Assembly (NCBI RefSeq): GCF_001625215.2
Contig: NC_030381.2
Span: forward strand, 54,547,214-54,611,213
Direction: 5' to 3'
Length of the DNA stretch: 64,000 nucleotides
Source: Daucus carota subsp. sativus
Taxonomy: Eukaryota > Streptophyta > Magnoliopsida > Apiales > Apiaceae
Part shown: positions 5,579 through 37,472 of the stretch, in pieces
How positions within the stretch are numbered: position 1 is the stretch's first letter
How the letters are laid out: every line of letters starts with the position of its first letter
Made by a program: the position numbers and the translations under genes
The notes under the pieces: generated by a model
What the model was told of the DNA's origin: nothing
Seen by the model: the letters and a program-made list of their open reading frames with translations, nothing else
Database searches by the model: none

Positions 5579-7243
5579 GTTTTTCACGTATCTTGCCATC
5601 AATTACCTTGATCGCTTTCTCTCCACCGGGGCCATTCAGGATGGGAAACCATGGATCTTGAAGTTAGTGGCAGTTTCTTGTGTTTCCTTGGCGTCAATTC
5701 CGTTTCGATGGTGATTTTTGGACTTTATTTTAAAATCGGTAATATCTTTCCTTTTATTTTTTAAATCAAATCCTCTCCGTCTCTTGTATTTTATTATGAT
5801 TGTAGATGTACATTATTGCATGTTTGTTTCTCTTCTCTTCTGATATAGAAGTTGTATAGGGTTTTTTCGGTGATCAAATTCATTTGTAACTTCGTTGGAA
5901 CTTGTTCGGATTAGGTTGTGAATTTTGTTGAGTGTAGTAGTCTATATTTTTCTAACTTGATTTATCCTAGCCGGATTTGATGTGGTTGTCGGTCACAATA
6001 TTAGTCGAAAACGAGGTGTGTTTTAGTTTTTAAGTGTTCTTTGTGTTCTTCGTAGTTCTTGATTTGTTGATGTGTTTCGTGTGTGTTTGATCTTCTACAT
6101 TATAAATTTTAGTTTTCAAAATTGTTTTTAGCTGCATGTACGAATAAATTATTGATTTTTATGATTTGAATATGTATTATTTTAATTATGGTATAAATTT
6201 ATATATTGTGCATATATATATGTTAGTGTGCAATAATTTTGGGTAGGAAGGAATTAAATACTTCAGTTATTCATAAGGAATTAAATTTCATATAAATGCG
6301 ATTTATATTTACCCAAATTAGGGATTAATTGATTCCATTCATGTTTTTTGAAAAATTGTGTGTTTGGTAAGTGTTTATGTGCATTTATTCCGCTTAATTG
6401 GCATATTAAATTTGTTAATTCATTAATATTTATGAATATTTATTGGGTGCCATAATTGATGGCTTTTATTAGGTCTTGATAACGTTCAAGAAGTTTGTAC
6501 CAATTTTGGTGGCCATAATTGGTGGCATATATTTTTGGACCAATATTGGTTGGCATGATTATCGTCCTATTGTCCTAAATGAATATTTTGCGGTTAATTT
6601 TGTTCTTGGATTAATAATTTGATTTTATTAATTCTTATACTTTGTGATGTTATGATAACCCTTTTATTGACTAGTTGGATAATTAAATAATTAATTTACG
6701 TTGATTGGGATATAAATATGATTTAATTTGTAATTTTCCTCTTTTCCTAACAAAAAACTTAAATTTTTGTTTATGTATTTTTGTTCCCACAAGAAAATAT
6801 TAATATGTATTACGATTTCTTTATATTGCGTGTCTAACCAAAGTTCTTACTTTGGTTAGACATTATCACTTTTCATATTTGTATCGTATTTTTATTAGTT
6901 CTAAAATTTTTATTTTTGAATAAGATGTTATATTATTATATTTATTTTTGTCAGGATTTATATGTCATAATTGGGTTTATTTTCCCCAAAATACTTTTTT
7001 TCTTTAATTTATCATTCTTATGTTTGTTTTTGCTTGGTTTGTTTTTCAGGATCTTGGAGGGAGACCTTACGGGTTTTCTTATCAGACTTTAAAGTCTTAT
7101 TATCTAAACGTCCGGAGATATCTTTGCGTATCTTTCGGTTAGATGATAAACTTTATTGGATGAAAGTAATCCCTGATGCGGCTATTGTATCTATGATACA
7201 ACTCATCTACGAGTATGTAGATCCTGACAAAAAAAAAAAAAAA
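5579..7243 (+). mobile_element. Poly(A)-tailed retro-insertion inside a MITE
   Basis: The segment is flanked by direct copies of TATTATCCAAACGG (5565-5578 and 7244-7257). It ends in a run of A at 7229-7243. A 14-17 base target duplication plus 3' poly(A) is the mark of LINE-driven retrotransposition. The body of about 1.66 kb starts with a GC-richer piece (about 5600-5740). It has AT-rich sequence in the middle and a possible acceptor TTTTTCAG before GATCTTGGAGGG at 7050. No reverse transcriptase was found. The ORF at about 7048-7220 has no recognised domain. Source sequence unknown; it may be a non-autonomous or 5'-truncated element. Confidence 0.65.
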
Positions 7244-13235: not shown

Positions 13236-14232
13236 AGGCAACTCTGTAAACAGTTGAAGTTAAAATCTTGCTTTTTAATTCTTTATTTGCCTTTCTTACC
13301 CTTCTTTACGGCAATTATATACTTGGTTTGATGTGATATCGACAAAGGGACAGCTTAAGCCTATCAATGACAACATTGTATCGCAATCATGCTAATAAAA
13401 ACACAGCTTAAAACAAATTATAATCAAGCACAGATATGAATTATCAATCAAATGCATTGTAAATATCACAAGCTACTGACAAAACATCATAAATTTCACA
13501 TCAGAATGCACGTTAAGTTCAGCACTTCATAAAAAAGGCGCAAAAAGACAATATTGCAGTGTGCTAAGCTGAAATGCTACTGCTGTTGTAATGAAAGAGA
13601 TCGGGTGATAATGAAATATTGAAATCGAATAAATTAAATTAGCAAATAGTCGACGTGAATATGATATTCTAGAGACCCAGATGCCAGATAATTAAGCATT
13701 TTGATTTTTGGAAGAAAATATTATATCGCGTTGCGTTTAGGTATGAAAAACACTACAAAACAAAACACGAATTAACATTTTAGGAGTAAAACGCTACATG
13801 AAATAGCGGAAAAGAGGATAAACGCTGCACGATCTAGCGTTTTGGATTGCAAAATGATAGGTCGGGGTCATTTTCTCCGACAGTGATATTTGAGACCATT
13901 TTCTTGAAAATTGTGACACTGAGGACAGCACGCCATGGTTTGTCATTTTGAGTACCTTTACAGAAAGTCTGCAATGTTAAATTCTCACTCTCAACATTTG
14001 TCATTTAGAATTAATTCGCAAGAAATTCTTTCTCCGTCACTGTAAATATATCACGTTCACGTACCAGATTACTGGCAAATGATCGATAAAGATCAATCAA
14101 ATTACTGGCAAATGATCGATGAAGATCAATCAACTGAACTCAGACCGATACATAGTAGACGAACAACATTTTCTACCTTAAACATACAAATACACATAAT
14201 TATCTTTTACAGACAAACCTCGAAAAGAATAA
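13236..14232. other. Intergenic spacer / HMA-gene 3' region
   Basis: AT-rich and without a supported gene. Around 13780-13850 there are AACGCT/AGCGTT motifs in both orientations that may be the end of an unrecognised repeat. The part near 14200 is probably 3' UTR of the HMA gene. Confidence 0.5.
14067..14133. repeat. Tandem duplication, about 34-bp unit
   Basis: ATTACTGGCAAATGATCGAT with AAGATCAATCAA is present twice head to tail with one visible mismatch. It lies just beyond the stop codon of the HMA gene, probably in its 3' UTR. Confidence 0.9.
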
Positions 14233-14881
14233 TTAACAGATAACACATGAATTAGGATCTTCCTCTGCCCTGGGAACAACATATTGAGGTTGGGACATCA
14301 TATAAGGATAATAGTTATGATAGGCTTTGAAAAGATCTTGCATCTGCTCGTTTTTCTTCTTTTCTTCGTCTAATTTCTTCTTCTTCTCGTCTTCCTTCTT
14401 CTTATCTTCTTCCTTCTTTTTATCGTCGTCTTTTTTCTTCTCAGGCTCTTTATCAGGACCAACCGTTAATAATTCTGCATGCCATAATTTTCTCAACTTG
14501 TTCACCACAGCAATCGGATCAATATCTCCGACCACAGTTAACTTTCTATCTTTCATATCTATTGATATGGACTGGATTCCTACATAGACAGTGTTACGAA
14601 AGAAATTTAGACCAGTACTCACCCTGTTACAGAGTACGACGTAAAATACTTATAGTTTTTAGTACCTGAGAGACTGGAAACTAATTTTAAGGCCTTCTTC
14701 TTTTCTTTTTCATCAAATATTTCCAACTTCACTACAACTTTCTGCAACAAACCAAAATCAAAGTTAAAGTGGCTTAAAAAGTCCATAAACAGTGCACAAG
14801 ACTCCGGCATCACACAATAATCATGATGTAACAATAATCCATCATAGTTTTGTTCAAAAAGAGCAAATAATTTACCTTCAT
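14233..14881 (-). CDS. HMA-domain isoprenylated protein (HIPP-like), degenerate metal site
   Basis: Exons 14881-14876 (only ATG AAG), 14741-14666 and 14579-14233 give 142 residues. The N-terminal 70 residues form a ferredoxin-like HMA domain: [20 protein letters not shown], then [20 protein letters not shown], then a [11 protein letters not shown] segment. The usual metal-binding MxCxxC is absent; its loop reads IFDEKEKK. A Lys/Glu/Asp-rich linker (about 80-110) follows, then a Tyr/Pro-rich stretch and a C-terminal CVIC. CVIC is a CaaX box expected to be isoprenylated, tethering the protein to membranes. Family members act in metal homeostasis and stress and as pathogen effector targets; without the cysteines, metal binding here is doubtful. 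The start was chosen because the two-codon exon has a perfect AAG|GTAAAT donor and matches the family N-terminus MKKVVVKLE. Confidence 0.88.
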
Positions 14882-26654: not shown

Positions 26655-26780
26655 AGCTGTCATGTACTCGTGTCCCTCAACCCACAAAGTGAAGAAACAA
26701 AGACTAGAAATAATTTATGCTCGTCCCGAATCAACTTTTAGTATGCAGCCACTGGTATTCTTCCTCTTCTGCTATATATA
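26655..26780 (+). promoter_or_regulatory. Promoter module of array gene A
   Basis: AGCTGTCATGTACTCGTG with CCCTCAACCC (a diverged form of the shared block) at 26655-26690, GCCACTGGTATTCT at 26748-26761 and TATATATA at 26773-26780. Same order as in the other array genes. Confidence 0.6.
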
Positions 26781-26857
26781 CTCCCTTCCCCTGCATTAAA
26801 CAAAATGCAAAGCAACTCATTTTTCTTCAACAAAAAGATACTCAAACTTAACAAGCT

Positions 26858-27043
26858 ATGGAAAGCAAGGTGGCAAAAGCTTATGGAGCAGCAAGTGCAA
26901 AAGGATTCCCCAGAAGAGGCCAAATCAAGTCGAGAATCGCAGCAAATGCTCTTCATTCTATCGTTTCGGTGCTGTTAAATGCTTCTTTGGATCACCATCA
27001 GTCTACTGGGAAACTCGGGAAGCTTCTCTTTCGAGAGATTTGA
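26858..27043 (+). CDS. Array gene A: small basic RGQIK/LHSI protein
   Basis: Intronless, 61 residues, starting MESKVAKAYGAASAKG. The conserved core begins PRRGQIKSRIAANALHSIVS at about residue 23; the His-rich DHHQSTGKL tail follows. It has its own C-terminal extension, GKLLFREI. The core is predicted to be a cationic amphipathic helix: I, A, L, I and V on one face, K, R, S and H on the other. No signal peptide, transmembrane segment or cysteine. The start is the first ATG, 78 bases after the TATA box. This is the first and most diverged typical member of the same-strand array. Family not recognised, function unknown. Confidence 0.78.
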   Translation: MESKVAKAYGAASAKGFPRRGQIKSRIAANALHSIVSVLLNASLDHHQSTGKLGKLLFREI

Positions 27044-28180
27044 TCTGTTTACTACGTACCATATGATCAACTGGTGGTTTTGTCGATCTTATTTTTGTAA
27101 TATTCTTTAGTTTTGTTGTTTCATTTTGTCTGTAGAGTAGTGAACGTAGAACTTTGTAAGCTTTCAGGCTCATCGTTTCAGAATTTATCAAATTTTTTTT
27201 GGATAAATGGGATTTTTTAGGCAAATCATAGTGTAATTAATAAATCGATGAAATATTTTTTCGGGAATTAATTAGAGAATTTTTAATGAATTAGGGACTT
27301 TCACAACACTGATTATTACTCCCTTTATTTTTTCTATTCGGCGATTTAAATTTTGGTGCATACTTTTTAAGTGTTGTGACTGGGCAGTTAAAAATATTAA
27401 TTTTTAAATTTTCTTTTTCTAAATAAAAATATAAAATCAAAATTTCAATTTACAAAAAATATCAATAAAAAATAATAATTTTATCATCCGGTCAACTGAA
27501 CTAAAGATGTTTATCAAAATTAAAAACATCAAGAAAAAAATACATAATAATAAAAAACTAAATACCTAAAGATGGATATTATATTTCCGCTTGGGCTGGA
27601 CTCCTCGAATTAGCCCCGCCCGGTTCCGTCACCAGAAGGAAACAATCTTTACAGCAAAACAAATTTCCACTAACACGATCCTCCCCTGTCTGTTTCTCAC
27701 CAATTAAAAAACGACACTCGAATTATTATGTTTTTTGTTCTCAAGGAGTTTGTAATCTTGCAAGTCACAATGCGACATGTTAAAACCACAACTGCGAGAT
27801 CAATAAGATTGTTTAGTATTTAAAACCAGGGTTCATCAGTGCATACTGATTTTATTACAGTAATGCACATTTCATATTTCCATGTGCCCAAGCCGCCTGA
27901 ATCCGCAATTCTGTGCGTCCGACACTGCAGAAATTCTTAGCCATGTGACAAGATAGATATCTCGTCGACAAAGCCTTCCTGCTTATATTTTAGTTATCTG
28001 CCTTCTCACAACCGACGTGGGACAACTCTTAACAGCATGATACAGGTAACATTTTATTGATCTTTTGCCTCTGCAGTCACGATACCAGAATTCAAATATT
28101 CTTCAGGTCTCAATAATGTTGTTCCGAAATGGGCTATAAATCCCAACACTGATAAAATATGCTGCAGCTCATAACATAAT
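27044..28180. other. Array spacer A-B
   Basis: Gene A 3' UTR, then AT-rich sequence with one Stowaway-like end (TTACTCCCTTTATTTTTTCT at about 27316). A block at 27840-27960 (CCATGTGCCCAAGCCGCCTG) has a diverged copy at 29255-29375. Confidence 0.55.
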
Positions 28181-28303
28181 CAGCTGGCATGTTCCTCAAC
28201 CCCCGCCAAGGCGCCATTAAAAGAAGAACAGACTGCAAATGAAATTATTCTGTTTGATATCGCGACTTAATTTGGATTTAGCTTCTGTCGTGCGCTATAT
28301 AAA
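28181..28303 (+). promoter_or_regulatory. Promoter module of array gene B
   Basis: CAGCTGGCATGTTCCTCAAC followed by CCCC at 28181-28204, and CTATATAAACTCC with the TATA at 28296-28303. The ATG follows 76 bases later. Confidence 0.7.
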
Positions 28304-28378
28304 CTCCTTACTAAAGACGTAGCAGAGCAAACTTTTCAAGAAAGCAATACGAAGCCAAAGAATAGCCTTAAGAAAACA

Positions 28379-28558
28379 ATGGAAAGCAGGATGAGGAAAG
28401 CAGCAAGTGCAAAGAGTTCAACAAGTAGCAGAGGGCCCTTACCGAGAAGGGGCCAGATAAAGTCCTTGATAGCGTCAAATGCTCTTCATTCTATTGTTTC
28501 CGTTCTCTTAAGAGCCTCGTCGGATCACCATCACACCACTAGAAAACTGTATTCTTGA
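28379..28558 (+). CDS. Array gene B: small basic RGQIK/LHSI protein
   Basis: Intronless, 59 residues. The N-terminus MESRMRKAASAKSSTSSRGP is shared with genes C and D. The core PRRGQIKSLIASNALHSIVS is followed by VLLRASSDHHHTTRKLYS. Very basic, with Ser-rich linker, no cysteine and no signal peptide. It differs from C and D mainly at the C-terminus, where STGK has become TTRK. The last codons lie in a 171-bp tandem duplication that runs into the 3' UTR. The start is the first ATG below a strong TATA box. Function unknown. Confidence 0.8.
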   Translation: MESRMRKAASAKSSTSSRGPLPRRGQIKSLIASNALHSIVSVLLRASSDHHHTTRKLYS

Positions 28559-28874
28559 GAGACTGATCTGTATACATGCATAATGAAAGTTGTTATCTCG
28601 GTTTAGCACAAAGAAAATGATGAGTTAGTTATTTCTGTTTCGACTTGTTATTTTTGTACTCGGAATTTTGAAATCCACAAAGAACAGGATGCTGAATCGA
28701 AAAACACCACTAGAAAACTATATTCTTGAGAGACTGATCTGTATACATGCATAATGAAAGTTGTTATCTCCGTTTAGCACAAAGAAAATGATGAGTTAGT
28801 TATTTCTGTTTCGACTTGTTATTTCTGTACTCAGAATTTTGAAATCCACAAAGAACAGGATGCTGAATCGAAAA
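28533..28874. repeat. 171-bp tandem duplication over the gene B 3' end
   Basis: Unit 1 is 28533-28703 and unit 2 is 28704-28874, both starting ACACCACTAGAAAACT and ending ACAGGATGCTGAATCGAAAA. Only a handful of mismatches are visible, so it is recent. Unit 1 carries the last eight codons of gene B; unit 2 repeats them as non-coding sequence. Confidence 0.95.
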
Positions 28875-30637
28875 ATCTCTCACATTGGTCATGTACAAAC
28901 TTACAAAAACATGTGTTTTTAACCCAAAAAAAAAACTAATCTAACTTTGAAAGATTCGTAGAGAATATACAAATGCCATCGTACCCATGGAGCATGGCAA
29001 TCTGCACGTGTCACTACATGCAAATCCGGAAGGATAGAAATTTCAACCGATATTTCTATTGAAAACTATAAACTTAATCTAACTGATGATGTGAATCGAT
29101 TACCTGTTGTGCTGGGAAAAGAATGTGTGGATCAGAACATCTTCGCTGGCATGATCCTCGACACTGTGATACAATTGTTGAATTGTTGAGACATCGATAA
29201 GATTTTCTAGTTAAAAAACTAGGCTTACCGCTGCAGCCTGCAAACATTATCAAATCCGTAATGATATTCTTGCAGTAGTGCATGTTACATGTGCTAAAGC
29301 CGTCTGCACTCTGCATGTCTGCATCCGTACCTTCGACAAAGCACATGTTATCAGCCATGTGTTGAGATATCATAAGCATGTGCATTCTGCAAATTCAATA
29401 AGAGGATCTCTGAAAAATACGGGAAGCCCTTTCACAGATAGCTGTCAATCTAACAAATACTTAATTACAGTGGTAAGTAAGATTTGATATACACGGGGAT
29501 GTCTGGATCATGGTTAATGAGTTCAGTTAACGGGAATCGGAATCTCAAACCCATGTGTTGGTGTTTAGATTAGCAAATTTATTGTATGGAATAGGAATCT
29601 CATTCCCATTTGGTGGGTAAGTCATTCCATTCACAGTCCATGGGATAACTATTCCCATACCTCTAATTCTCATTCCCGACCACAATCCAAACGCCCCCAC
29701 AGTTTTTTCTCTTTTTTCGTATTCATGGAAATGCAGTACATTTTCTTTCCATGAAGAAGATGTTTTCAGAGTCGGAACATGTGAATCTGTTACCCAGAAA
29801 AAGCCTGTTTTCACTTCACAATCATGCCAAATAAGGCATTTCTTATTTTCAACCAGTAAACACGACATAAATAGTAACTTTATATAATTCTGTTGAAATT
29901 AAGGTGTTTTTAATCTTATCAACTACTAGGAAGCTAGTTAGATCCTTCTTCAGACAACTGCTTGTCAGTGAAGAAGCAACACAGTTTCGACATTGTGTTA
30001 TGCAACGGCGTTTTGTCAAGTGCAACAGAAACAGGTTCTTTCTATAGCTAGGCAGGGCAGTGGGGAGGCACGCCAGCGGTAGCGTGACTTGATAGATTCC
30101 TTTGAAATAGTAAAAGTCAAATTTGCAAACATGACTCAACTACTGGTATTGTTATAATGTATACAAGTCAAAAACTAGGCATGTGAACGCTAATTTGTGA
30201 TTGTGTTACGAAGGAATATCTTTTACATTAGTAGAGGTTTTTTGTAGACAAGTTGTTAGCATAAACTATTAACATAAAGCGTAATAAATTCTTAAATATT
30301 TTGACCAATTGAAGCAGCCAAAGAAGAAGAAGATGGTACCAGAAATTTTTCTGCTTCCTTGGTAGTTCCGATTTGAGTAGCCATGTCATGAATATATCTT
30401 AAGGAAGTTGTGCCACGAACAATCCTCTGTCCTTAAGCTGCACTGAGCTGACTGAGAAAGATCTCATGCCTCTGTTGATTTTAACATGATATCAGAGCTC
30501 TTTTGAACCAACAGAGTCTTGTCTAGAGACTCTAATATTCTCGAATATTTAATCCAGACACTAAAATGAGTCTTGCCTCAAAGATAGACTCCTGTCATCC
30601 ATTCTTCAATAGTAAAAAATGCTTGAATGTGCTAAAT
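28875..30637. other. Array spacer B-C with orphan promoter-like block
   Basis: No ORF of the family. Contains a TGCACGTGT motif at about 29002, the orphan GCTGGCATGATCCTCGAC at 29145, a copy of the 27840 block at 29255-29375, and a GGAATAGGAATCTCATTCCC-type AT-rich repeat at 29560-29700. A block at 29930-30130 is duplicated at 32410-32630. Confidence 0.6.
29145..29162 (+). promoter_or_regulatory. Orphan array promoter block
   Basis: GCTGGCATGATCCTCGAC matches the block before genes B, D and F, but no TATA box at the expected distance and no small-protein ORF follow. Probably the remains of a lost unit. Confidence 0.5.
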
Positions 30638-30749
30638 TAGCTGTCATGTTCTTCAATCACCAACAAAAGAAACATAGACTGCAATTATTTAATCTGTCTT
30701 ATACTATCAACTTTTCGCCAGCCACTGGTATTCTAATGTGCTATATAAA
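30638..30749 (+). promoter_or_regulatory. Promoter module of array gene C
   Basis: TAGCTGTCATGTTCTTCAAT block at 30638, GCCACTGGTATTCT at 30721-30734 and CTATATAAACCCC with TATA at 30742-30749. The ATG lies 97 bases below the TATA. Confidence 0.7.
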
Positions 30750-30845
30750 CCCCCCATTAGGAAAAGAGCAAAGCAAGTCATCTCTCTTCATCAAAGCAAT
30801 ACAAACCACCATCAGTTTTCAGACATTAAATTCTTGATAAAAACA

Positions 30846-31025
30846 ATGGAAAGCAGGATGAGGAAAGCAGCAAGTGCAAAGAGTACCAGAAGTAGCAGAG
30901 GGCCTCTACCGAAAAGGGGCCAGATAAAGTCGATAATAGCATCAAATGCTCTTCATTCCATTGTTTCTGTTCTCTCAAGAGCCTCTTCAGATCACCATCA
31001 CTCTACCGGAAAACTTATTATCTGA
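30846..31025 (+). CDS. Array gene C: small basic RGQIK/LHSI protein
   Basis: Intronless, 59 residues: MESRMRKAASAKSTRSSRGP, core PKRGQIKSIIASNALHSIVS, then VLSRASSDHHHSTGKLII. Nearly identical to B and D, and the best match to the array consensus. Basic Ser/Arg N-terminus, predicted amphipathic helix, His-rich end and no signal peptide. The second Met (residue 5) lines up with the start of gene E. Function unknown; confidence that it is real rests on conservation between copies while flanks diverge. Confidence 0.82.
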   Translation: MESRMRKAASAKSTRSSRGPLPKRGQIKSIIASNALHSIVSVLSRASSDHHHSTGKLII

Positions 31026-31975
31026 AGGATTGATCTGTACAGATGCATAAATGATCCTTGTTGTCACTATTAGCAAAAAGTAATACAAAAGATTATTTTT
31101 TTCTGTTTCGAATTCTTTGTTGTTCAAGTACTCTTTTGTAGCGAGGTTGAATATTTAAACTCCACAATGAAAGAAGTGCAGACTATTGATAGCTCTATCA
31201 CATTGATCATCAGCTACGAACTAACAGACGTACATTTCTAACCGAAAACAAAGAAACAACCAATATATTAATGAAAATGAAGATAAGAGGAAGCATTTTA
31301 CAAAATGAAGATGCAAAATAACCTTGTCATACACAAGAGCTATATAAATATAATTTTTTAATTATCACTAAATCGAAAACATGGGACTTTCAGCTGTTGA
31401 ATCTTGAAAACAGAATAGTCATTGCTTAAAGCAAACCACTAGCTAATAAATATTATTTACGATGAGAAATTTTGCCTTCAATGTATCATCTTTTCGGTCA
31501 TTTCTTAACAGAGTTTAGTAGCATGCAAATCGCTGCAGTTGGACATGGTAGAAGCAGACAGAGATGAAACAAAATGCAGGGTTTAACTCTCGAAAACAAG
31601 AATAGTCCTTCCAATTTCTGAGAACAAAGAACTTAAATAAATGCTAGTTGCTCTAACTGCTCTTTGGCTAATTGCATTAATTTTTTCAGTATTAGCTGTC
31701 GAAACTGCAGAACATATAAAAATGGTACCATAAGATCCATAATAATGTGTCGCAGCTCCATCCTCCCTCCACTCTTCTTACCACACTGATGGCTGAAACC
31801 TGCACGTGTTTAATAGCAATATGATACTGCAAGATCATTATTGTTCAATTATATAAAGATTTATAGCGAGAAGTTGCGGGTTTTTTTTTTAGTTTACCAA
31901 AATAAGTTGTGCATGGCAGATCACGATCAACTTGTTTAAAGCCAGGAAGATAAGATTCTGATATAGCTTGGTTTC

Positions 31976-31988
31976 GCTGGCATGATCC
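31976..31988 (+). promoter_or_regulatory. Orphan array promoter block
   Basis: TTTCGCTGGCATGATCCCAGC, followed at once by CACGTGT. There is no TATA box or family ORF downstream at the expected spacing. Confidence 0.45.
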
Positions 31989-32116
31989 CAGCACGTGTAT
32001 CATACAGATGGACCCATATTCAATCCCCACGGACAAATGCAACCTGCACAATTTTACCACAAATCTGAAATGTTCAACCATTATTTTCATATGAACTATA
32101 TGTTATCAAAACTCGG

Positions 32117-32255
32117 TTCAGGGAGGGGTCTCGGGATTGTCTATCTGTTTTTGTCTACTGTGCTCAATCATACTTAACACTATAAACTGAAAATATACGT
32201 AAATTTCAGGGAGGGGTCTCGGGATTGTCTATCTGTACGTAAATTATCATGCTGT
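32117..32255. repeat. 32-bp direct repeat, second copy flanked by 9-bp duplication
   Basis: TTCAGGGAGGGGTCTCGGGA and the following TTGTCTATCTGT occur at 32117-32148 and again at 32215-32246. The second copy is flanked by ACGTAAATT at 32208-32216 and 32247-32255. This fits a templated filler insertion. Confidence 0.85.
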
Positions 32256-32799
32256 AGCATGCGATATTTCCAAATCCCGAAGGAAGATATCTGAACTCTG
32301 AAGACATGGATATTCCTAAACACAACAGAATGATAATTTAATAACATGAATCATTGTATGATATATTTTGTTGTAAATTTCAGACCTCTACAACTATACG
32401 ATGTTATCAACTAACAGGAAACTCGTTCGATCCTTCTTTAGACCATTGCTTGTCACTTTGTCAATGAAGAAGCAACACTGTTTAGGCATTAAGATTTGGT
32501 ATCCAGCGGCGTCTTGTCGAGTGCAACAGACACAGGTTCTTTCTATATCTAGGCAGGACGGTGGGGTGGCACGACAGCGAAATTATTTGACTTGACAAAG
32601 ATTCTTCAGAATGATATAAGTCAATTTTGTGGAAGGAGCTTTAGGACAAATATAGTTATAGCCTATAATTTATACCCGTAGGAACGAGACACACGTCTAA
32701 GGAGAGTTGGTAACTTATCATGTCACGAGGCTCAACTGGTTCAAAATAGTGTCATCGGGCTAAAAATGAAACCTTACTAGAACACTACACCTAACACAT

Positions 32800-32890
32800 G
32801 TTCGTGAGAGTCGGTAACTTATCATGTTAAAGAGTTTCTTTGACTCGACAATCTCGGGTTCGAATCCTAGGAACCCGAAATTTGTTGAAA
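32800..32890 (+). repeat. tRNA-like sequence (SINE-like remnant)
   Basis: GGGTTCGAATCCT at about 32866-32878 matches a pol III B box. About 60 bases upstream GAGAGTCGGTAACTTATCAT repeats GAGAGTTGGTAACTTATCAT at about 32702. No poly(A) tail or target duplication was seen. Confidence 0.35.
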
Positions 32891-32952
32891 TATGGTTTCT
32901 AGTGATCAAAATGCAAAATATATTAGAATGTGCTGCAACACCTAACTCAATT

Positions 32953-33065
32953 TAGCTGGCGTGTTCCTCAACACCCCACCAATACAAAAAACATACTTGA
33001 AATAATTTATTCTTGTTTTATATTAACAACTTTCCAGCCACTGGTATTCTGCTGTGCTATATAAA
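32953..33065 (+). promoter_or_regulatory. Promoter module of array gene D
   Basis: TAGCTGGCGTGTTCCTCAAC block at 32953, GCCACTGGTATTCT at 33038-33051 and CTATATAAACCCC with TATA at 33058-33065. The ATG lies 113 bases below. Confidence 0.7.
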
Positions 33066-33177
33066 CCCCCTATTAGAGAAGGAGCAAAACAAGCCATTCT
33101 CATCATCAAAGCAATATTACAGCAAAAGAACAACCAGGTCTCAGATACTAGTTTTCGGAAAAAAGAAAAAGAAGAAA

Positions 33178-33357
33178 ATGGAAAGCAAGATGAGGAAAGC
33201 AGCAAGTGCAAAGAGTTCCGCAAGTAGCAGAGGGCCTTTACCGAGAAGGGGCCAGATAAAGTCAATAATAGCAGCAAGTGCTCTTCACTCTATTTGTTCT
33301 GTTCTCTCGAGGGCCTCTTCAGATCACTATCACTCTACCGGAAAAGTTGTTTTCTGA
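33178..33357 (+). CDS. Array gene D: small basic RGQIK/LHSI protein
   Basis: Intronless, 59 residues: MESKMRKAASAKSSASSRGP, core PRRGQIKSIIAASALHSICS, then VLSRASSDHYHSTGKVVF. The core has one cysteine (IVS to ICS), the only Cys among the four typical members. Otherwise it follows B and C closely. The ATG at 33178 was chosen to match them; reading upstream stays open but adds sequence not shared by the array. Function unknown. Confidence 0.82.
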   Translation: MESKMRKAASAKSSASSRGPLPRRGQIKSIIAASALHSICSVLSRASSDHYHSTGKVVF

Positions 33358-34578
33358 TTTTTGAACTTATCTGTATATGATTCATAGCGTAATTGATAGT
33401 TGTTATCTCAGTTGGAGAAAAGATAGCTGTGATCTCTTTTCATTCTATCTGGACTTCTTGTTATTCCAGTGCTCTTTTATAGCGAGGTACAATCTTGAAT
33501 TCCTTAAAGAAAAAAGTGAGCAGATTGCAGAATAAGTATGCTGTCTTGTACTGACCAGCTACATACTCGTAAAATTTATATATTCAATTCGAAACAAACA
33601 ACAACTGATCTAATATGAAAATGGCAATTCGTACTTGCAATTAAATAAAAATAAGATGATGCAGGTAAAGAATGGAGTAATCTTTTCATGCACCAGACCG
33701 TACAATGTGAGGTATGAACTGTTAATTCTAAAAAATGAAAGAGTCAATGCATAAACTATGCAACTTACCAATGAATATTATTTAATTGAAATATATTTGT
33801 AGTTTTCATTTATTAATATATATAAAAGAAACAGATTCATTGCATTAGGTGGGAGATGAACCCAAGTCTAGCATCTTTGGGGCATAAATATGCCTTTGTG
33901 TCCATAATTAAATATGAAAATATCGGGGATCGCAGGAAGAAGTCGTATTCGAGTCTCCTGAAAGCTCTCATACCATTTTAAGTGACCAGTCCTCATGAAA
34001 CCTTAAATTCTAGCAGTTATTTTTGTAAATTGGTGATTTCAACATCCTTATGTTAAGGTACGAGTTAATACTAAGCCTATTATAAACATTTAATGATATA
34101 ACATGGAGACTTTACATATTTTCTGGGCACTACGCAGCTATAGGAAAATGGTAATATGCTTGCTGCAGACCTGCAGTAGCACATGGCTCAGAAGAACACA
34201 AAGATGGAAGAAAATGCAGCGCTCAACTCTTGGAACCAAGGATAGCCAGTCCAGCAATAAAAAACAGCACACAGATGCAAGTTGCTCCTGATTGCATTAT
34301 CTTTTTTCAATATTAGCTGTCAAGATTCTTAAAAAATGAAATTGTACCAAATTGTGCCATCGGATCCATTAGGTATTATCGCTTCATCCTCATCAACTCC
34401 CCCCACACGGACGGCTGAAACCTGCACGTGTACATTATCAGCATACACGATACTGCAAGACCATTATTGTGCGTGTTACATAAACACATATACTATATGT
34501 AAAATTGTATCGGTATTTCCAAGGAGCAAGAAAATAATGCAGAAAGCTGGCAAATTAGAAATCTGATAAACCGATAGT
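33358..34578. other. Array spacer D-E
   Basis: Gene D 3' UTR and diverged duplicated sequence, including GGCTGAAACCTGCACGTGTA at about 34412. A short frame at 34103-34291 has no family motif and was not called. Confidence 0.5.
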
Positions 34579-34636
34579 TTAGCTGGCAGATTATTCCTAT
34601 TTAAAATTATAATGAGAATCACCCTGTGTATATAAA
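34579..34636 (+). promoter_or_regulatory. Promoter of array gene E (decayed upstream block)
   Basis: TTTAGCTGGCAGATTATTCC is a weak form of the shared block, only about 45 bases from TATATAAACCCC (TATA 34629-34636). The usual spacing is over 100 bases, so a deletion is likely. Confidence 0.5.
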
Positions 34637-34720
34637 CCCCTGTAGTAAAGCCATTGTTCTCTCCGAATCTTCAATAACAGTGCACTATATTGGCATAGAA
34701 AGGTGGTTATTCGAAGCAGG

Positions 34721-34996
34721 ATGACTAATGTCTCTGCAGTAGTACCAGCAGAATGTTTAAGAAGTAGAAGGTCTCCACCTAAGAGAGGACAAATAAAGAT
34801 GAGGATAGCAACTAATGCTCTGCATTCAATTGCATATGCACTATCAAAGACCTCCAATCACCAACCATGGACTGGAAAACTTACTGCAGGAACTTACAGA
34901 AGTAAAAGATTTATACCGAGGAGGGGACAAATAAAGTGCAGGATAGCAACTAATGTTCTTCATTCAATTGTCTATGCACTATCAAGGGCCTCCTAA
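34721..34996 (+). CDS. Array gene E: double-core RGQIK/LHSI protein
   Basis: Intronless, 91 residues. Core 1, PKRGQIKMRIATNALHSIAY, is followed by ALSKTSNHQPWTGKLTAG. A short RSKRFI linker leads to core 2, PRRGQIKCRIATNVLHSIVY, ending ALSRAS. It is a tandem duplication of the core inside one ORF. The ancestral first ATG is gone: the region aligning with ATGGAAAGCAGGATG reads TTCGAAGCAGGATG, so translation probably starts at the old Met5. The end is also shortened by a stop where the others read the Ser of SDHH; sequence resembling the lost tail continues after it. Both cores keep all invariant residues, which argues for selection rather than decay. Confidence 0.78.
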   Translation: MTNVSAVVPAECLRSRRSPPKRGQIKMRIATNALHSIAYALSKTSNHQPWTGKLTAGTYRSKRFIPRRGQIKCRIATNVLHSIVYALSRAS

Positions 34997-37071
34997 AATC
35001 ACCCACCGGTCTGATCAGAGAACTTATAACTGAAATGCTTTTACTGTATCGTAAAAGTTCTCTGGTTTCTTCTCCCTGTACTTTCAGTTGATCATTGGTA
35101 TTCAAAATTAGTGATTATGAACTGAAGAAAGTTTAATAAAAAGGATCTCTTAATTTCTGTATCTAGGGAAAATTTCAGATGTTTGCTGCATTTAATGGCA
35201 GGGTGTGCCCACGTGTTCATCTGCTAAAGAAGTCACATTCACATCCAACAAAAATAGAGTACATAGCTGATCGATGACCCCAAGATAAAAACTAGAACAA
35301 GAATAAGAGTTTCTAATATTATTTACAGAGTTCAAGCAACCCATACAGAAGACACTAAAGCAATATCAGATGATGTCAAACTTCCCGGAAAAAAAAACAG
35401 AACATGTACAGCTTCAGTCTGTCATATACTGCCTCCCAGTACAATCTACTTACTATGTAGATAGTTTGTTCCGTTTTATCAAAATTACCGAAAAATGGAT
35501 AGAAGAATCATCATTTAATTTTAGATGCTAACAACCGCAGAAAGAGCCAAAAAAAGGAAAGTATAATGCAAGTGTTGCCTGCTTGGTGGTTCTACAATCA
35601 TGATCAAGATAAGCACACTGGTTAGTTAAAGGCTTGTTAGAGGATGGTTGAGACAACAAAATAAATAATGTTCCAGCATAGTAGGATGGGCATGTACAGC
35701 AAGACTATAAGACTTTTAAAGTATGAAATCAGCATTACAGTTAAAAAGGTAAGGTACTTTAAAAGCAACACAACAATTAGCAATTAAAAGGCAAAGGCAA
35801 GGCAAACAACTATAAGTAAGTAAACCCTACAAATTTTTACAGTTTTCTTCCCTTATTTTTTTACCTGTCTCTGATACTAATGCCAACTAAAAGAAAGAAT
35901 ATATCATATGCCTGCAAAAATTATATAAAACCTCTCCTTAAGTGCATATTTAAGCAAGTGGCTGCTAATTTAAAGAAGAAAAAGAGACAATACCGCAACT
36001 TGCATAATGATTAGGATTATCATGGTTTCATCATTGCAAACATCATCACTGCAGAATGATTCCCCCTAAAGTAATTTAATGTACTTCCTCTCCATGTGCT
36101 GAAGCCGCATTCGTAAATTTGCAAAGCACGGGGGCTTGGCATGTAGCTATTAAAGAAAGCCTATTCGTGATTTCCAATGATAGATCCCTGAGAACATGGA
36201 TAGCCCTTGTGTATATAGCTGTCAAAATTAACATAAACATATAAATAGTTCTCACCAGTAGATCATTACCATTGTGATCCTCATTTGAATTTTCCACTGA
36301 TCCAATTACCTGTACAAATCCACACGTGTGATTGTGGACCAAGAAGCCAGTATGAAAATTAACTACAATAATGTATAATGGCATATTAATAATGCCAAGA
36401 AGCAATGCAATGAAATCAAGTTGTCTCAAGTTGGGGAGAAAGGAATCTTCTGCAGCAGACACTATTGCTGGCATGCTCCTAACCCCCATAAACTATAAGA
36501 ATATATAAGAAACCGAGCCAGATTGACAGTTTCAAAGCCACTGAGGAGTCACACTTCTGTTGTATAATATGTGCAGTGGATTATGATTCACTTATTATAT
36601 ATCAACAATGTGGTGTGTATCTATTATTGAGTTCTTATTCCATATTTTATTGTCAAATGTTTTATGTTTGATAAATAACTGATAGTATAGTTGTATTTAT
36701 AATGCATAGTTGATGTTTTACTTGCAAACATAGATGGCCTTCTTAACATCATCTATATAACGGCTAGTTACTCGATGAGTTCTTGCCTAGATGTATGCTG
36801 TTAAAGTTACCTGTCAAATGTACACATAAAACAGAACTGTTCTTACAAAATTTTCTCTGAGCACTGCTAAGTTCTCATCCTGTTTGTTCATCAATACTCC
36901 AGATTTCAGTACATGTACCTGCAAAGTCGTGCACATTCACTATAAGCAAATCAAAACAAGTATTCAGTCACATTAGCTAGATTAATCTACATTGAAATTC
37001 TCAATAAGTCAACTCATTACTAAATAACCAAATCGTCTCGGGAAAAAGGAATCTTCTGTAACAGACAATTC
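34997..37071. other. Array spacer E-F with orphan promoter
   Basis: No family ORF. The part 36430-36520 closely matches the gene F upstream region. The antisense frames at 36076-36489 and 37009-37257 are reverse translations of these promoter copies. Confidence 0.55.
36466..36509 (+). promoter_or_regulatory. Orphan array promoter with TATA-like box
   Basis: TGCTGGCATGCTCCTAACCC and, 25 bases on, GAATATATAAG. The preceding GGAATCTTCTGCAGCAGAC matches GGAATCTTCTGTAACAGAC before gene F. No small-protein ORF follows, so the coding part of this unit is lost. Confidence 0.55.
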
Positions 37072-37186
37072 CGCTGGCATGCTCCTCAACCCCAACCAAT
37101 AGAAATAAATAAATTTCAAAAAATACATATGCACCAGATCAACTCTTTCCCACTTGTATTTGGATGAGTCATTTCTACTATATAAA
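37072..37186 (+). promoter_or_regulatory. Promoter module of array gene F
   Basis: CGCTGGCATGCTCCTCAACC followed by CC at 37072, and CTATATAAACTCCCC with TATA at 37179-37186. The ATG lies 104 bases below. Confidence 0.7.
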
Positions 37187-37289
37187 CTCCCCACAGCACA
37201 AGCAAAAAACCTACTGGTGTTCATTTGTAATAACTGATATTTAGAGTCCAGATACAACTTTTATCAGTTCCAGAGGGGTGACATTAAAC

Positions 37290-37472
37290 ATGGGAAGCAA
37301 GATCTTTAATGTACCAGAGGCAGCAACTGCAGATAGTTTCAGAAGTAGAAGGCCTCTACCTAAGCGGGGGCAAGTGAAATCAAGGATAGCCGCTGTTGTT
37401 CTTCATTCAATTGTTTCCATGCTTTCAAGAACCTCTTATGATCACCATCAATCCAGTGGAAAACGCTTTTGA
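37290..37472 (+). CDS. Array gene F: small basic RGQVK/LHSI protein
   Basis: Intronless, 60 residues. The N-terminus MGSKIFNVPEAATADSFRSR differs from B-D, but the core PKRGQVKSRIAAVVLHSIVS and tail MLSRTSYDHHQSSGKRF are clear. It is the last copy in the array. It has the same basic charge, predicted amphipathic helix and His-rich end. The strong conservation of promoter and core but not of the first 20 residues points to the core and tail as the functional part. Function unknown. Confidence 0.8.
   Translation: MGSKIFNVPEAATADSFRSRRPLPKRGQVKSRIAAVVLHSIVSMLSRTSYDHHQSSGKRF

Follow-up and report, generated by a model that had tools for sequence, protein, structure and literature searches.

The DNA analysed here is a stretch of 64,000 nucleotides of the carrot genome (C1:54547214-54611213; hereafter the window), and its subject is an array of six small genes, g1 to g6, at positions 26858-37472. 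It can be seen in Table 1 that the six open reading frames (ORFs) all lie on the same strand, as described in the initial annotation, and they encode proteins of 61, 59, 59, 59, 91 and 60 residues, respectively. That annotation also reported a common core, and alignment bears this out: the core is present in all six ORFs, with invariant columns that include P, R-G-Q, K, I-A and L-H-S-I, and every ORF, both modules of g5 included, carries the motif P-[KR]-R-G-[QE]-[IV]-[KQ]. The C-terminal tail is of the DHH type in four genes, NHQ in one and DHY in one, and the earlier count of five out of six is correct when DHH and NHQ are taken together; the second module of g5 stops before the tail. One cysteine is found in g4 and two in g5, none of them in a conserved column of the alignment, in agreement with the claim that no cysteine is conserved, and the array therefore does not show the conserved cysteines of cysteine-rich secreted defence peptides. 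For the comparisons that follow, the two modules of g5 (g5a and g5b) were counted separately and two further genes at C1:2.05 Mb (h5 and h6, see below) were added, giving nine array-type modules.

The coding sequence of the array is under purifying selection. Nei-Gojobori counts over the 36 pairs of the nine modules gave a ratio of non-synonymous to synonymous substitution (dN/dS) of 0.16-0.46 in 32 pairs, with two pairs undefined owing to saturation of dS and values of 0.62 for g3-g4 and 1.09 for g5a-g5b. The initial annotation had named a dN/dS near 1 across the array as a point that would tell against it; this is not what was found, although in two pairs, g3-g4 and g5a-g5b, the ratio does not fall significantly below 1. 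Three pairs that have no row in common were additionally analysed by a one-sided Fisher test on the proportions of non-synonymous and synonymous differences (pN/pS), and constraint was significant in each: g2-g3 (pN/pS 0.26, P 2.7e-4), g6-h6 (0.27, P 8.9e-4) and g5a-h5 (0.50, P 6.8e-3), with a combined P of 3.7e-7. Pooled over all pairs, pN/pS was 0.28 for the core, 0.52 for the tail and 0.76 for the N-terminus; on the three pairs alone the values were 0.29, 0.41 and 0.41. When columns were bootstrapped, the fraction of replicates with a higher pN in the tail than in the core was 0.93 for all pairs and 0.97 for the three pairs; for the N-terminus against the core the fractions were 0.999 and 0.72, respectively. 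These figures suggest that the core is the most constrained segment, the contrast with the tail not being firm.

The genes are embedded in larger repeated units. Units of g2, g3 and g4 recur at spacings of 2467 and 2332 nt and can be aligned over as many as 868 columns (g3 against g4). In six gene pairs compared, the coding sequences were 71-89% identical. Identity was 54-79% for the 220 nt upstream of the ATG, 50-64% for the first 200 nt beyond the stop codon and 34-60% for the region from -520 to -220, against a background of 44% on average and 49% at most for 15 unrelated 220-nt pairs. Coding identity was higher than that of both near flanks in all six pairs. The earlier statement that coding cores are conserved while spacers diverge thus holds for the first half; the second half is too strong because repetition extends to the proximal promoters and to some of the spacers, among the latter the stretches at 29913-30163, 31533-31865 and 36358-36508, which recur within the array.

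A TATA box precedes the ATG of all six genes, at a distance of 83-120 nt. Further upstream, g2, g3, g4 and g6 carry a 21-nt element close to GCTGGCATGCTCCTCAACCCC with 0-5 mismatches, of which g1 and g5 share only the start at the aligned place. Two additional copies are not followed directly by a family ORF; the one between g5 and g6 is matched by a retained counterpart in the duplicate block (C1:2.0495 Mb) and may be a relic promoter or enhancer. A 16-nt upstream element, GCTGGCATGNTCCTMA, has five exact matches in the genome, all at the array or its duplicate: before h6, g2 and g6, and at two places without a gene directly 3'. With up to one mismatch it is found at 36 places, compared with 3 for the control. 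Near matches at C3:8.148-8.160 Mb were considered as another array and rejected, as no family ORF was seen there and they resemble, by eye, the coding sequence of other genes; nor was a family ORF seen at three more near matches, L075-L077 (six of the 29 one-mismatch places outside the array and its duplicate were viewed). The hexamer CACGTG is present at positions 29005, 31803, 31992, 34425, 35210 and 36323, that is, six times within the array (12,501 bases) and five times in the remaining 51,499 bases of the window. This box is associated with control by abscisic acid, light or jasmonate, which would be a guess in the present case.

Table 1. Positions of the array genes, of their upstream and repeated sequences (window coordinates) and of related ORFs elsewhere in the genome.
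Feature	Position	Strand	Remarks
Gene g1	26858..27043	+	61 residues; RGQIK-helix module; tail DHHQSTGK; longer C-terminus
Gene g2	28379..28558	+	59 residues; tail DHHHTTRK
Gene g3	30846..31025	+	59 residues; tail DHHHSTGK; modelled, single helix at residues 24-53
Gene g4	33178..33357	+	59 residues; tail DHYHSTGK
Gene g5	34721..34996	+	91 residues; two in-frame modules, spaced 138 nt apart
Gene g6	37290..37472	+	60 residues; tail DHHQSSGK
TATA box of g1	26773..26781	+	85 nt before ATG
TATA box of g2	28296..28304	+	83 nt before ATG
TATA box of g3	30742..30750	+	104 nt before ATG
TATA box of g4	33058..33066	+	120 nt before ATG
TATA box of g5	34629..34637	+	92 nt before ATG
TATA box of g6	37179..37187	+	111 nt before ATG
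Upstream element of g2	28183..28203	+	1 mismatch to GCTGGCATGCTCCTCAACCCC
Upstream element of g3	30640..30660	+	5 mismatches
Upstream element of g4	32955..32975	+	3 mismatches
Upstream element of g6	37073..37093	+	exact
Extra upstream-element copy	36467..36487	+	2 mismatches; no family ORF directly 3'
Extra upstream-element copy	29145..29165	+	4 mismatches; no family ORF directly 3'
Tandem duplication	28533..28874	+	171 nt, 98% identical; g2 end and 3' flank
Non-coding stretch	36083..36233		82% identical to duplicate block near C1:2.0499 Mb
Distant ORFs	C5:39.095, 39.110; C2:36.735, 36.742, 36.765; C3:5.906, 5.915, 5.932; C4:31.271; C8:17.778, 17.786 Mb

Duplication has also acted on smaller and larger scales. 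The 171-nt duplication at the end of g2 is a recent event. A genome search with g3 returned 11 places. Seven of these lie in the window and two at C1:2.048-2.051 Mb; of the other two, the one on C9 contains a stop and the one at C5:39.110 Mb is a weak match. At C1:2.05 Mb the genes h5 and h6 match g5 and g6, the intervening non-coding stretches match too, and a gene at 14206-14756 of the window has a 75% match at C1:2.0608-2.0613 Mb, in inverted collinear order. We read these matches as a block duplication that appears to have retained two array genes; outside the array the support comes from the last gene only, and shorter matches at window positions 7075, 15492, 27191, 47225 and 63250 are in the wrong order or orientation and are perhaps repeats. 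In the tree of the modules g6 and h6 were joined (100/99) and g1-g4 were grouped (93/93), the remaining forks being weak. The array genes are predicted single-exon ORFs with TATA boxes of their own that arose by tandem duplication, with a block duplication in addition.

The protein encoded at 14236-14622 (-), which marks the block duplication, gives a partial match to the HMA (heavy-metal-associated) domain (E 2.8e-4, 21.6 bits, below the Pfam cut-off of 24.8) and also holds a K/D/E-rich stretch. A non-coding element, CATGTGCTGAAGCCGCATCCGTAC, is present in three copies in the duplicate block (L009 reverse complement 3895, 3957 and 4001, with 0, 6 and 0 mismatches) and in one copy in the window, at 36093, with 2 mismatches. 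A tRNA-Gly (tcc) gene at L009 7155-7226 (+) adjoins the duplicate block, and no tRNA gene was found in the window. The duplicate genes are also adjoined by a 1211-residue open frame (L069, C1:2056232, +) that resembles a retrotransposon polyprotein by eye.

Not all copies are intact. h6 stops short of the tail, as judged by eye because of a frameshift, and the copy on C9 begins with ATT instead of ATG and contains an internal stop, with a piece of tail and 3' flank about 0.9 kb before it. Together with the upstream elements that lack a gene and the two pairs without significant constraint, these broken copies would fit a decaying cluster whose ORFs persist through duplication and from which little or nothing is made. 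We consider this very unlikely for the array, in view of the significant constraint in the three pairs, the excess of coding identity over the near flanks in all six pairs compared, and the TATA boxes before all six genes.

The initial annotation called the family unrecognised, and for the Pfam, NCBIfam and PDB sequences searched this holds. No Pfam family matched the six array proteins at E values up to 10, and none was found for the C5 rows, C2:36.735, h5 or h6. Among the 11 distant rows described below, a phage lysis protein and a rhomboid N-terminus were each matched by one row (E 0.02 and 0.023); these were judged to be chance, as were the single NCBIfam match among the six, for g5 (E 0.03; 13.2 bits, the cut-off being 604), and a designed helical barrel matched by the distant-row profile in the PDB sequences (E 4.9). 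NCBIfam gave nothing for the distant rows, the PDB sequences gave no match for g5 or the array-type profile, and Rfam at gathering thresholds gave no match in the window. Two Agrobacterium places retrieved from plasmids by tblastn (E 0.6) were likewise put down to chance, and a pattern scan of bacterial and archaeal genomes matched 11 stretches, none of which was confirmed as a relative. The longer motif letters were not found in the open-access literature, which means little as most papers print no such sequences; five- or six-letter forms occur in three papers that by title deal with other subjects, and a concept-level search found nothing on this family in the portions of text that it returned. 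There may be similar 'hypothetical' proteins in plants.

Relatives are present in the same genome. A search with the C5 relative found C5:39.095 and C2:36.735 Mb, and the next query added C2:36.742 (E 0.15) and C2:36.765 Mb (E 0.06), both weak tblastn matches. When the genome was scanned with a degenerate DNA pattern encoding P-[KR]-R-G-[QE]-[IV]-[KQ], 25 places matched, compared with 4 for the backward control, and 19 of the 25 were assigned to the family by reading each: seven in the window, two at C1:2.05 Mb and ten elsewhere. The six places set aside were L058, L063, L064 and L067, where S replaces R before G, L045, where the ORF stops directly after the motif, and L062, where the motif is present and the helix is in another phase (-5 degrees). 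From other searches, L022, L024, L027-L032 and two further places were also rejected, being mostly of low complexity (L024 with an internal stop). With C2:36.735, whose cap reads Y-R-G-Q-I-K without the proline, the ten pattern modules make 11 distant ORFs, or 13 outside the window when h5 and h6 are included, which is a lower bound.

The distant ORFs resemble the array in their P-[KR]-R-G-[QE]-[IV]-[KQ] cap (except C2:36.735), their short length, a similar phase of the hydrophobic face where tested, and the presence of neighbouring copies on C2, C3, C5 and C8. However, they contain neither L-H-S-I nor DHHxSTGK, and their tails are very short, acidic, or rich in glycine or serine. Compared with the C5:39.110 row they are 20-42% identical, with varied N-termini and tails, and R-G is common to all rows compared, array and distant alike. 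When a profile of eight array-type rows was compared with that of the 11 distant rows, a probability of 95.8 and an E value of 7.8e-9 were obtained over 35 columns, although the motif residues and much of this score are not independent evidence because rows were picked by the motif or by weak matches. Six of the profile rows were chosen by motif alone; helix phase is the more independent test. We conclude that the array looks as if it had arisen by local tandem expansion within a larger group of small proteins that this genome encodes and that apparently has no name.

Within this set, three near-identical ORFs at L055-L057 (C3:5906408-5931567, -) of about 59 residues from the likely ATG combine a PPKRGQVKVKI cap with an acidic EKETE[PA] tail. 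Two small neighbouring ORFs at L065 and L066 (C8:17777774-17785837, -), near-copies of each other, read RRRSIP[RK]RGQVKAGIV[IL]GLAQSVASVFSP, and their post-cap helix is nearly uncharged, unlike the rest of the set.

An AlphaFold2 model from the six window rows gave one helix at residues 24-53, with a mean predicted local distance difference test score (pLDDT) of 70.3, a predicted template modelling score of 0.39, and pLDDT of up to 92 for ten-residue blocks. Each of the nine array-type modules has a net charge of +7 to +9 and no strongly hydrophobic stretch, the highest 19-residue mean being 0.20-0.47. Judged by this hydrophobicity window only, the signal peptide and transmembrane segment reported initially as absent are probably lacking. 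The phase of the hydrophobic face was determined over the 17 residues after the cap in 11 sequences, comprising four array relatives (g1, g3, g6 and h5) and seven distant rows; near-duplicates were omitted (g2, g4, both g5 modules, h6, one C2, two C3 and one C8). In all 11 the face lay at -56 to -102 degrees (-56 to -65 for the array relatives, -65 to -102 for the distant rows). The summed moment was 4.41, compared with 0.77 +- 0.40 after shuffling, and was reached in none of 20000 shuffles; with five distant rows alone, one shuffle in 20000 reached it. Of the cationic amphipathic helix predicted initially, helix and charge are therefore borne out, whereas amphipathicity is weak in most sequences taken singly and becomes clear only when the set is viewed as a whole.

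A basic N-terminus followed by an amphipathic helix might also serve as a mitochondrial or plastid targeting sequence, in which case these would be organelle-directed micro-proteins whose helix acts in or on the organelle. The net charge, the position of the helix within the first 55 residues and the N-terminus having the highest pooled pN/pS are consistent with this. Against it, the helix that follows the conserved P-[KR]-R-G is better conserved than the rest of the protein, an uncommon trait for a targeting sequence, and N-termini and tails vary among the distant members, and we regard such a role as unlikely. The same positive charge, with R-G in every row compared, could alternatively mark small nucleic-acid-binding proteins whose basic cap touches RNA or DNA; this seems to us quite improbable, as no Pfam family matched the six and the hydrophobic face points to docking on something non-polar.

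The initial annotation proposed precursors of non-classically released signalling or defence peptides; in such a scheme no signal peptide would be used and the activity would reside in the C-terminal DHHxSTGK end. Release of this kind occurs with plant elicitor peptides and systemin, defence-related genes often expand in tandem, the proteins contain no strongly hydrophobic stretch, and the tail is retained in some form in all six genes, all of which would suit this explanation. However, the tail is less conserved than the core (the bootstraps being suggestive only), it has been lost from h6 and from the second g5 module, and it was not seen in the 11 distant rows; nor is the C-terminal peptide the most conserved segment in the array, as it would be in a peptide hormone. 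The idea is weakened accordingly, and we give it a low probability.

As the shared unit is cap plus helix and not the DHHxSTGK tail, a small helix-docking regulator is favoured over a released peptide. We tentatively propose, at slightly under an even chance, that the six genes encode very small, strongly basic, probably soluble proteins that would be cap-plus-helix docking regulators derived by local tandem expansion. The basic cap would start the single helix; the hydrophobic face of the helix might dock on a membrane surface or a partner protein, which we infer from this face and the basic cap; and the protein would act as a small peripheral adaptor or regulator, with a clade-specific tail, here DHHxSTGK, that may tune the choice of partner or stability. 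A membrane-binding regulator is possible. The TATA promoters and nearby CACGTG boxes would suit regulated, perhaps stress- or light-related, expression. A broader proposal, doubtful on balance, is that of an unnamed plant micro-protein family built on a transferable R-G-Q-I-K cap and amphipathic helix, which might expand repeatedly in tandem and exchange its tails; such a unit would serve for docking in general, and the array would be a lineage-specific, inducible form tuned by DHHxSTGK.

Several observations weigh against the favoured explanation. Significant constraint is absent from g3-g4 (pN/pS 0.65, P 0.26) and g5a-g5b (1.07, P 0.65), and some members may be decaying because the tail of h6 is lost and the C9 copies are broken. 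The CACGTG boxes and upstream elements were duplicated along with the units and, because the units were copied, the boxes are not independent; the window array accounts for two of the 31 one-mismatch places of GCTGGCATGNTCCTMA, the other 29 lying outside both loci. Among the 11 distant rows, six (C3, C4 and C8) entered through the motif pattern alone and the two at C2:36.742 and 36.765 through the weak tblastn matches. The phase rows are not 11 independent cases: four belong to the array or its duplicate, and there is mutual resemblance among C5a, C5b and C2a. Moreover L058, a pattern hit judged to be unrelated, is in the same phase (-66 degrees), the other four such hits lying at -5, -42, 64 and 131 degrees. 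Single-sequence moments were for the most part not significant, with P of 0.05 or below in six of the 11 sequences over the 17 residues and, over 22 residues including the cap lysine, in only two of 17, the C8 pair being lowest there.

Annotation readily overlooks small single-exon genes, and this array has no family model in the libraries searched. The cap-plus-helix signature retrieves 19 modules in one genome and offers a handle for finding relatives in other plants, while the array and its broken duplicates illustrate the expansion and decay of such genes. If the helix is indeed a docking device, these proteins would form a compact regulator class open to experimental testing in a crop plant.

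Precursors of plant elicitor peptides and prosystemin lack a signal peptide, a feature that the array proteins may share. Systemin is described as being cut from prosystemin (PMC11756074). The array differs from these precursors in that its C-terminal end is not the most conserved part. VQ, DVL/RTFL and wound-induced (DUF3774) proteins are small plant proteins without a signal peptide; the six array proteins differ in having no Pfam match. SAUR (small auxin-up RNA) arrays likewise consist of small intronless plant genes in tandem, but no SAUR (auxin-inducible) Pfam domain was detected in the six at E values up to 10. Tandem arrays of small intronless genes are familiar from plants, and the present one is an uncharacterised variety.

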